From positions 1-55,586 of the forward strand of contig JAOASE010000010.1 in the NCBI GenBank assembly GCA_025210155.1: 55,586 nucleotides of DNA. The letters are read 5' to 3'. The notes below the pieces were generated by a model. It was not told where the DNA came from. It did no database searches and saw only the letters and a program-made list of their open reading frames with translations. This DNA comes from Alphaproteobacteria bacterium. Lineage in GTDB: Bacteria > Pseudomonadota > Alphaproteobacteria > Rs-D84 > CASDRH01. The translations under genes and the position numbers were made by a program. Positions 14,261 to 48,727 of this stretch are shown here, one piece after another; position 1 is the stretch's first letter, and each line of letters opens with the position of its first letter.

Positions 14261-14286
14261 GAAATGCTCCCGTTAAGGAGCATTTC
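14261..14286 (+). terminator. Hairpin after rnhA
   Basis: GAAATGCTCC and GGAGCATTTC form a perfect 10-bp stem; the T-run is weak. Confidence 0.55.
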
Positions 14287-14320
14287 AAATCAAAGCACAA
14301 ATTTAGTCAGGTAAACGAGA

Positions 14321-14545
14321 CTAAATACTTTCAATAATTTTCAAAATCTTTTGGTTTCTCTTAATATCATTTTCACAAGTAACATCAATAAAACCCTCTA
14401 CTTCATCATACATCTCAATTTCTATCAAAGAAAATACACTATCATAATCAGCAATATTCTCTTTAGAAAAATATAAAGCGGAATCTAAATCCCTTATATT
14501 AAACTTAAAAGTATCAACCCCTTCTAGGATTTTTAACTTTTGCGT
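14321..14545 (-). pseudogene. In-frame coding continuation of the 14546 gene beyond its TAA
   Basis: The stretch stays open in the same frame as the 67-residue gene for 74 codons after its TAA and ends in TAG at 14321. It has no start codon of its own until about 27 codons before the end, yet reads as coherent protein (FNIRDLDSALYFSKENIADY, then IEIEMYDEVEGF). This looks like the soluble domain of a membrane-anchored protein cut off by a nonsense change at 14546-14548. Readthrough or a sequencing error are alternatives. Confidence 0.55.
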
Positions 14546-14749
14546 TTAATAAAATTTTAACTGCTCATAGCAATTATATAAATTCAAATTTTCCTTGTCT
14601 GCCGATATCTTAGACAATATATGTCCTTGATTAAAAGTAAGCTTATTAATTTCTTCAACAAAAGAATAGTTTGAAGACAACCAAAAGAAAATACTTAAAA
14701 CTCCCACCGAAAATACTATCAGCGAAACAGAAATTTTTTTCCAATCCAT
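14546..14749 (-). CDS. Membrane-anchored 67-residue protein, probably truncated
   Basis: An N-terminal transmembrane helix (about residues 6-26) is followed by a short polar region and the TAA. It has a TTGACA-17-TATCAT promoter and a leader with AATTTAAACCTAAATTT, very like the leader of the unrelated gene at 53667; no SD. The reading frame continues for 74 more codons after the stop, so the original protein was probably 142 residues with a single N-terminal anchor, a plan also seen in the 19753 and 21753 genes. Confidence 0.55.
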   Translation of the reverse strand: MDWKKISVSLIVFSVGVLSIFFWLSSNYSFVEEINKLTFNQGHILSKISADKENLNLYNCYEQLKFY

Positions 14750-14824
14750 AACGTGTAAATTTAGGTTTAAATTTATTTTTTTTACGAATTGATGATAAGT
14801 TTATAATCTCAAATTGTCAATAAC

Positions 14825-14852
14825 AAAAAAAAGACCCCTTTTTAAGAGGTCC
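14825..14852 (-). terminator. Terminator after the 14873 gene
   Basis: GGACCTCTT and AGGGGTCT pair around an A-rich loop and are followed by a run of T on the minus strand. Confidence 0.8.
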
Positions 14853-14872
14853 TTGTATGGTAGTATATATAG

Positions 14873-23671: not shown

Positions 23672-23744
23672 AAAACAATCCTTACATACATATGTATTAT
23701 ATTTTCCAAAATTATATAAAAACCTAATAAAACAATCAAGAAAT

Positions 23745-24017
23745 AAAAAAAACACCCAGATTCTTAGGAGAGAGAAAAAGAACCTGGGTGCCAAACTATT
23801 CTTGGTGTAATAACCATTAATTTTAAGGGCGTTCCCTCAAAATATTGCAACATTCGAAATTTAAATTTTAAAAATATAGCGCCAAAAGATCGTTGTGGGA
23901 ATAGGCGCTATATTTTGACTCTTTGGGATGATCTAATATGATCACATTTCATCTAAAAACGTTTTCTCAGATGGGAGGGGTTGAGCACCCTCTCTTTTTT
24001 TTAAAATTAAAGCAAAA
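23745..24017 (-). ncRNA. Structured noncoding RNA candidate A
   Basis: Transcription is predicted from TTGCAA-17-TATATT just upstream (24046-24018 region) to a strong terminator at 23745-23790 (CACCCAG/CTGGGTG plus eight T). Between them lie nested hairpins with no ORF: CATCT-GAGAAAACGTTTTT-AGATG, TGATC-ATATTA-GATCA, an 11-bp AATATAGCGCC/GGCGCTATATT stem, and AGGG-AACG-CCCT. The unit shares architecture with unit B. I do not recognise 6S, SRP, RNase P or tmRNA signatures. The terminator loop is pyrimidine-rich (TTTTTCTCTCTCC). Confidence 0.5.
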
Positions 24018-24049
24018 ACAATATATAAAACAAATATTTTAATTGCAAG

Positions 24050-24268
24050 AAAAAAAACTCCCCTAATGATATAAATCATTAAGGGAAATATTGAGTCAAT
24101 TTATAATGACGAACGTTTTCGCCCTCAAAAGTACTGAATAGAGATTTCTATTTCAAAAGGAGCGCCCGATTAACAGTTGGATCTAATCGGACGCACGTAT
24201 TATAGGACTTCCTCTCTAAGACGTTTCTTAAAAAGGGAGGCTTTACAGCCCCTACATATATTTTCAAA
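24050..24268 (-). ncRNA. Structured noncoding RNA candidate B
   Basis: Ends at a terminator at 24050-24085 (CCCTTAATGA/TCATTAGGGG plus T-run). Internal stems: GGGGCT-GTAA-AGCCTC at the 5' end, TAAGA-AACG-TCTTA, a long CCGATTA/TAATCGG stem extended by GCG pairs, and AATAGA-AATC-TCTATT. As in unit A, a GAAA(A)CGT hairpin is followed by a long GC-capped stem and then TTTTGAGGG. No ORF, no recognised family. The promoter is less clear (TTGAAC upstream, A/T-rich -10). Confidence 0.45.
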
Positions 24269-24312: not shown

Positions 24313-24375
24313 AAAAAAAAGCGCCCCGAACAAAGGAATGTGAGCGCTTTTTCAATTTAAATACTTATCAAATGC
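24313..24375 (-). ncRNA. Short RNA candidate C (about 63 nt)
   Basis: TTGACA (24410-24405), 17-bp spacer and TATTCT (24387-24382) precede a short segment ending in AAAAAGCGC/GCGCTTTTT with eight T (24313-24352). The terminator loop contains CATTCCTTTG, complementary to AAAGGA-type ribosome-binding sites. No ORF of useful length. It could be an sRNA or simply an rpsP readthrough buffer. Confidence 0.4.
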
Positions 24376-24412
24376 AATTAAAGAATAACTTAAGTATTCC
24401 CAAATGTCAAAT

Positions 24413-24446
24413 ATAAAAAAATACTCCCACAATTGTGAGAGCATTT
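24413..24446 (-). terminator. Terminator of rpsP
   Basis: CTCTCACAATTGTGGGAG hairpin followed by ATTTTTTT on the minus strand; it overlaps the promoter of RNA C. Confidence 0.75.
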
Positions 24447-24468
24447 TAAACTTATACCAAATATAAAA

Positions 24469-38289: not shown

Positions 38290-38451
38290 AATATAAACTC
38301 CTTATTTTCCTTATGGGTTAAAATCTTCCCTTACCACCGCCTAAGCAATAATAAAGAAAAACTTTCAATCTACGAACTTTGAGGCTTAAGAAATAGCCAC
38401 CTCGTAGATAAGGTTCAGCCCACATTATAAAGAAACAAACCCAAAAGTCAA
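38290..38451 (-). promoter_or_regulatory. rpsF promoter and leader
   Basis: TTGACT (38451-38446), 16 bp, TATAAT (38429-38424). The leader pairs CTACGAGGTGGC...GTTCGTAG and includes TTAGGCGGTGGTAAGG. S6:S18 autogenous leader motifs at this position are known in many bacteria. That this leader is one is inference from position and a GGTGG segment. Confidence 0.45.
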
Positions 38452-38463
38452 GCTTTTAGACAT

Positions 38464-38808
38464 AAAAAAACACCTCCGATTTCAGAAGGTGCACCCAATA
38501 AACTTTATGTATATGATCATCGAAACGATAGCTGCTTCCAAGCCAAGCTTCTACAACACATACAATCCATTAGGAATTTTAAGCTTTCTAAAGCTACTCT
38601 GAGCTTTTTATTCCGGTTGTGCCGGATAAAGCTGAAGGGTTCACTGATGCTCCCCTCCTATTTTCTATCTCCGTTCAGCCTTCTTTTACGAAGTGCTGTC
38701 TCATCTTAAACTAAGACTACCATTACCTAAGTAGTTAGGGGTAGAACAATCCAAGACCTGACCTTGAGCATTAAGGTGAAGATATTTCTTTATAAATACA
38801 TTTCTTGT
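38464..38808 (-). ncRNA. Highly structured noncoding RNA candidate (about 345 nt)
   Basis: Promoter TTGACT-17-TAAATT (38843-38815), terminator CACCTTCTG/CGGAGGTG with seven T (38464-38494). Between are many compact stems: CTACC(...)GGTAG enclosing CCTAA/TTAGG, TCTTA-GTT-TAAGA, CAGC-ACTTC-GTAAAA-GAAG-GCTG, TCCGG-CACAA-CCGGA, AGCTTT-AG-AAAGCT. Length fits RNase P RNA or tmRNA, but I cannot find a GAGGAAAGTCC-like core, an Ala-tag reading frame or a tRNA-like T-arm. No ORF. Fills most of the 620-nt gap beside rpsF. Confidence 0.55.
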
Positions 38809-38852
38809 AAATAAAATTTACCCTCATAAAAAATAAAAGTCAATATTTAAAT

Positions 38853-38881
38853 TGACAATACCAATTATTATAAATAGAATA
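38853..38881 (+). promoter_or_regulatory. Promoter of the 38911 gene, overlapping a divergent promoter
   Basis: TTGACA, 17 bp, TAGAAT on the plus strand. Its -35 is part of the near-palindrome GTCAATATTTAAATTGAC, whose other half is the -35 of the divergent noncoding unit. Confidence 0.6.
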
Positions 38882-38910
38882 ACCACACAAACAATTTAAA
38901 CCCTTGTAAA

Positions 38911-48574: not shown

Positions 48575-48689
48575 ATTTTTTTATATTTTATAGGTGTGTT
48601 TAAATATTAATAGGCATAAATACCTAACTACATATAACCACAAAAGTCAAATACTTTTTTGAAAAAATCATAGAACTCTTTTAATACAA

Positions 48690-48721
48690 TAAAAAAAGGC
48701 TGTAAAAATTCACAGCCTTTA
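48690..48721 (-). terminator. Terminator after the 48728 gene
   Basis: AAGGCTGT and ACAGCCTT form a stem followed by TTTTTTT on the minus strand. Confidence 0.85.
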
Positions 48722-48727
48722 ATTATT

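Follow-up and report, generated by a model that had tools for sequence, protein, structure and literature searches.

The interval between rpsP and rimM in this alphaproteobacterial genome (1.03 Mb in 12 contigs, 97% complete) contains two strongly structured, terminator-ended units, A and B, which lie in tandem on the minus strand, are related to each other and are absent from the relatives searched. They may be two small regulatory RNAs specific to this lineage. With a probability of roughly 0.5, we read them from their sequence as a tandem of small non-coding sibling RNAs produced by duplication, which would act as base-pairing regulators without Hfq or ProQ. Throughout, the window is the whole 55.6-kb stretch of DNA that was analysed (55,586 nt).

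Two structured units between rpsP and rimM

The rpsP-rimM gap spans about 795-797 nt. Read along the minus strand, the rpsP terminator is followed by a promoter-like site, a short hairpin with a T8 tail, unit A, unit B and a promoter-like site in front of rimM, the identity of which was confirmed by Pfam. The relatives of the TrmD encoded here place the genome among the Alphaproteobacteria. The genes and the elements that flank the units are:

24942-24469, minus strand: rpsP
24418-24447, minus strand: terminator-like hairpin directly 3' of rpsP, with a 13-bp stem and a T run
24382-24410, minus strand: promoter-like TTGACA-17-TATTCT just past the rpsP terminator (10/12, consensus match only)
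24315-24356, minus strand: third, short hairpin with a T8 tail (AAAAAGCGC...GCGCTTTTT; fold z -2.66), a terminator or a very short unit
23711-23739, minus strand: promoter-like TTGATT-17-TATAAT 5' of rimM (10/12)
23674-23141, minus strand: rimM
23132-22362, minus strand: trmD

The elements of the two units are:

About 24050-24258, minus strand: unit A, about 209 nt, paralogous to B
24237-24252, minus strand: 5' GC hairpin of A (helix probability 0.95)
24211-24236, minus strand: first AACG-loop hairpin of A, 11 bp (helix probability 0.98; changes compensatory with B)
24162-24194, minus strand: long GC-rich stem of A, 12 bp (helix probability 0.95)
24107-24129, minus strand: TTTTGAGGG and weak second AACG hairpin of A (6-bp stem, -4.4 kcal/mol; pair probability about 0.2-0.4)
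24050-24087, minus strand: terminator of A, 13-bp stem and T8
24020-24048, minus strand: promoter-like TTGCAA-17-TATATT 5' of unit B (9/12, weak)
About 23745-24002, minus strand: unit B, about 258 nt
23975-23994, minus strand: 5' GC hairpin of B (helix probability 0.84-0.87)
23950-23973, minus strand: first AACG-loop hairpin of B, 10 bp (helix probability 0.96)
23871-23916, minus strand: long GC-capped stem of B, 13 bp, with a 20-nt open loop (helix probability 0.97)
23820-23843, minus strand: TTTTGAGGG/CCCTTAAAA second AACG hairpin of B, 10 bp (helix probability 0.94)
23746-23790, minus strand: terminator of B, 13 bp, with a pyrimidine-rich, fully unpaired 12-nt loop and a T8 tail (helix probability 0.99)

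Unit A folds at -68.7 kcal/mol, compared with -45.4±4.1 kcal/mol for shuffled sequences (z -5.64), and unit B at -82.0 kcal/mol, compared with -49.4±4.8 kcal/mol (z -6.77); in neither case was any of 200 shuffles as good. Moreover, among the 25 intergenic regions of the window longer than 150 nt, the rpsP-rimM gap on the minus strand gave the strongest z-scores, with unit B being the most structured stretch, and the region has six serial terminator sites where 0.8 are expected. Four other intergenic regions of the window are also strongly structured (1517-1922, 14261-14872, 38290-38910 and 48575-48727; best z -3.8 to -5.2); none of the four had a match at Rfam gathering thresholds.

A simple hairpin scan of both strands detected exactly four AACG-loop hairpins of at least 6 bp in the 55.6 kb, two in each unit and all on the minus strand (24225, 24117, 23963 and 23833). 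In 5000 shuffles of the gap, such hairpins occurred 0.01 times on average and at most once.

An earlier note on this DNA had proposed two structured units between rpsP and rimM with a shared order of elements. We recovered both units at the same positions on the minus strand, and both have the order GC hairpin, AACG hairpin, long GC-rich stem, TTTTGAGGG at the second AACG hairpin and T-tailed terminator. The proposal that each unit runs from a promoter-like region to a T-tailed hairpin holds for the ends of both units; for the starts, unit B has a weak candidate (9/12), whereas no sigma-70-like promoter just upstream of unit A passed the scan. The region does not contain clearly more promoter matches than shuffled sequences do. 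On the plus strand, the 5' GC hairpin of unit B is followed by T8 (23973-24000) and could also terminate plus-strand transcripts.

No ORF of at least 50 aa lies within unit A or unit B, and the single 45-aa ORF spanning the A terminator and the start of B had no significant Pfam match. Short frames exist, for instance a 29-codon ATG frame in B (ATGTTGCAATATTTT...), and short frames behind AAGGAG/AGGAG sites are present in the corresponding interval of the only other genome of the family (G001). However, A and B have no frame in common and the B frame is not preceded by an SD-like site, and we consider a role of the units in coding for short peptides, or for a type I toxin-antitoxin-like pair, very improbable.

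Units A and B are related to each other

Local alignment of A with B gave a score of 63 compared with 34±6 for shuffled sequences, and none of 500 shuffles reached it. The alignment is collinear across the whole units, passing through AGGG-GCT, CCTCCC, eight bases, AAACGT, the GC-rich stem, TTTTGAGGG, AACG and the terminator. In the first AACG stem, all ten of ten pairs are kept between the copies, four with two-sided and three with one-sided changes, and sliding the partner by 1-3 columns lowers pairing to 35-65%. Matching pairing was obtained in 25 of 500 column shuffles, which, with two sequences only, is limited evidence. Within the limits of two sequences, this pattern is what selection on RNA structure would give. 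The similarity of the copies and the compensatory changes between them support that A and B are paralogous, diverged structured RNAs, as the earlier note had suspected; the structural evidence is that of one paralogue pair.

The interval varies between lineages and the units have no detectable homologue in the genomes searched

In families f2, f3, f4 and f6 of the order, rpsP and rimM are about 0-60 nt apart, while many genomes of family f5 have several hundred nt with ORFs between these genes. In G001, the only other genome of family f1, the interval is 1025 nt long and contains terminators of its own together with structured stretches and SD-led short frames; it has no similarity to A or B. 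Accordingly, the claim that the units split a usually continuous operon stands for f2, f3, f4 and f6, in which the genes are nearly continuous, and does not hold for many f5 genomes and the other f1 genome, in which extra sequence is present. Since both the nearest relative and another family also have a longer interval, filled with unrelated sequence, it looks like a spot of lineage-specific gain, that is, a lineage-variable insertion spot.

Several further features were observed in these relatives. The G001 interval (L098 1960-2984) includes two short SD-led frames that flank a structured stretch (z -5.9), as well as a short Cys-rich frame (MPKCIICKKC...), and an Rfam search of it at E up to 1 gave nothing beyond miRNA noise. 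G001 RimM (L098 2985-3278) seemingly consists of the C-terminal PRC-barrel only (97 aa), with the N-terminal RimM domain unmatched; the PRC match is weak (23 bits, under the Pfam cut-off of 27). In many f5 genomes (L024, L026, L029 and others), a stretch with short ORFs, several hundred nt to 1340 nt long, separates rimM from trmD.

The interval could also be an insertion spot with decaying or neutral content, in which case the hairpins would be remnants of a former element without present function. Its variation, from about 0-60 nt in f2, f3, f4 and f6 to 797 nt here and 1025 nt of unrelated sequence in G001, with ORFs in many f5 genomes, fits this possibility; by contrast, the compensatory changes preserve pairing between diverged copies, which argues for structural selection, and we regard decay as unlikely.

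The motif CCTCCC-N8-AAACGT occurs twice in the genome, once in A and once in B, and was not detected in 95 relatives. A covariance model of the 5' part of the units (R1) found A and B at E about 1e-11, and gave no credible homologue in the 26 nearest genomes, 201 genomes of the order and 385 of the class. Three matches, all lacking CCTCCC-N8-AAACGT, were rejected: one at an ORF edge (G010), one in a hairpin between LptF-like and NusA-like frames (G055) and one with E 6e-4 per genome in a search over 385 genomes (G238). Viral contigs with the motif gave no R1 match, a DNA search of phages and plasmids gave no match, and a DNA search of 96 genomes gave short matches only, mostly AT-rich.

In agreement with the statement in the earlier note that the units match no known RNA, Rfam gave no credible match at gathering thresholds over the whole window or at E up to 10 over the 1-kb region. 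The best sub-threshold match, to the S4-Fusobacteriales leader (26.2 bits, cut-off 48.8), was taken as chance, as were generic terminator-like matches. 6S RNA (RF00013) had no match in the region (E up to 10) or in the whole genome; a tmRNA was rejected, the tmRNA of this genome (alpha_tmRNA) being on another contig (G000:C12); and RNase P, considered because A has GAGGAAGTCC, was without Rfam support. A literature search for 'AACG tetraloop' found nothing.

A and B as candidate sibling small RNAs

A search with PF17209, which was positive in five control genomes including Caulobacter, did not find Hfq in this 97% complete genome, and ProQ was not found either. Open pyrimidine-rich stretches are present in both units, and an SD-like AAGGA/GAGG precedes 20/32 genes of the window. 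On the basis of the lack of detectable Hfq, ProQ and 6S RNA together with these stretches and sites, we favour Hfq-independent siblings that would pair at ribosome-binding sites.

We infer transcription of the units, their boundaries, their seeds and their action in trans as follows. Duplication would have given A and B in tandem, and these would be discrete transcripts of about 210 and 260 nt, each ending at its own intrinsic terminator, and transcription of rimM-trmD would start anew at a promoter of its own, 3' of B. The recurring AACG-loop hairpins would represent a conserved structural or protein-binding module. Open pyrimidine-rich stretches are the candidate seeds, namely UCCUUU (24161-24156) in A and, in B, both the terminator-loop sequence UUUCUCUCUCCU (23777-23766) and UAUUCCC from the loop of the long stem. 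These seeds are not the same in the two units; they would pair with purine-rich ribosome-binding sites of mRNAs, in trans and without Hfq or ProQ. The CCUCCC common to both units is paired (mean unpaired 0.04 in A and 0.17 in B) and is therefore not an exposed seed.

The main rival is attenuation of rimM-trmD, in which A and B, as attenuators or riboswitch-like leaders acting in cis and arranged in tandem, would regulate rimM-trmD (or B) through a terminator/antiterminator switch on a read-in transcript. Both units end in terminators directly 5' of rimM, and in A, pairing of UUUUGAGGG with the 5' terminator arm is possible (-8.6 kcal/mol), while B allows a similar pairing (-7.5 kcal/mol). However, the terminators are far stronger (-16.4 and -18.5 kcal/mol), TTTTGAGGG in B is sequestered in a hairpin of its own (probability 0.94), the B terminator and rimM are separated by a promoter-like site, and no Rfam leader or riboswitch was detected at gathering score. 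We judge attenuation to be unlikely.

Returning to sibling RNAs, a bolder version, which we hold to be improbable, is that A and B belong to a new sRNA class in which the repeated AACG-loop hairpins recruit a dedicated RNA-binding protein, so that this alphaproteobacterium with a reduced genome would have a duplicated regulator that works without Hfq. If transcribed, the units would represent birth and duplication of a lineage-specific sRNA gene within an operon for a ribosomal protein, in a 1-Mb genome for which neither Hfq nor ProQ was found; moreover, the two diverged copies would provide an internal test of which hairpins selection maintains.

Comparison with known systems

A and B share with tandem riboswitches and attenuators the serial arrangement of structured units, each with a terminator at its end, in front of a gene; they differ in lacking a known aptamer and in the promoter-like site that separates rimM from the last terminator. 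A conserved aptamer 5' of the regulated gene in relatives, as expected of a riboswitch or r-protein leader, was not found: the searches gave neither a homologue nor an Rfam leader at gathering score.

Excerpts of two papers describe AbcR1/AbcR2 (alpha-r15) as alphaproteobacterial siblings that share an intergenic region in tandem and are each ended by an intrinsic terminator (PMC3712013, PMC4211561), and as carrying an exposed UCCUCCC (PMC3712013). Like AbcR, A and B are tandem copies with intrinsic terminators, and their CCUCCC stretch resembles the anti-SD UCCUCCC. Unlike AbcR, they have this stretch base-paired rather than exposed, have no Hfq in the genome on which to depend, as far as our search detected, and are about twice as long. 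AACG hairpins are not described for AbcR in the excerpts (PMC3712013, PMC4211561). By Rfam, AbcR/alpha-r15 had no match in the region at gathering thresholds or at E up to 10, with the presence of an alpha-r15 model in the library unconfirmed. Because A and B lack an exposed anti-SD sequence and the dependence on Hfq, we do not file them as AbcR.

Tandem sibling sRNAs are a known kind, with OmrA/OmrB and PrrF1/PrrF2 presented in the excerpted source as tandem duplicated genes (PMC4211561). The siblings described there are highly similar in sequence, whereas A and B are strongly diverged, and they belong to genera other than that of A and B; what A and B share with tandem siblings in general is the presence of two related structured RNAs in one organism.
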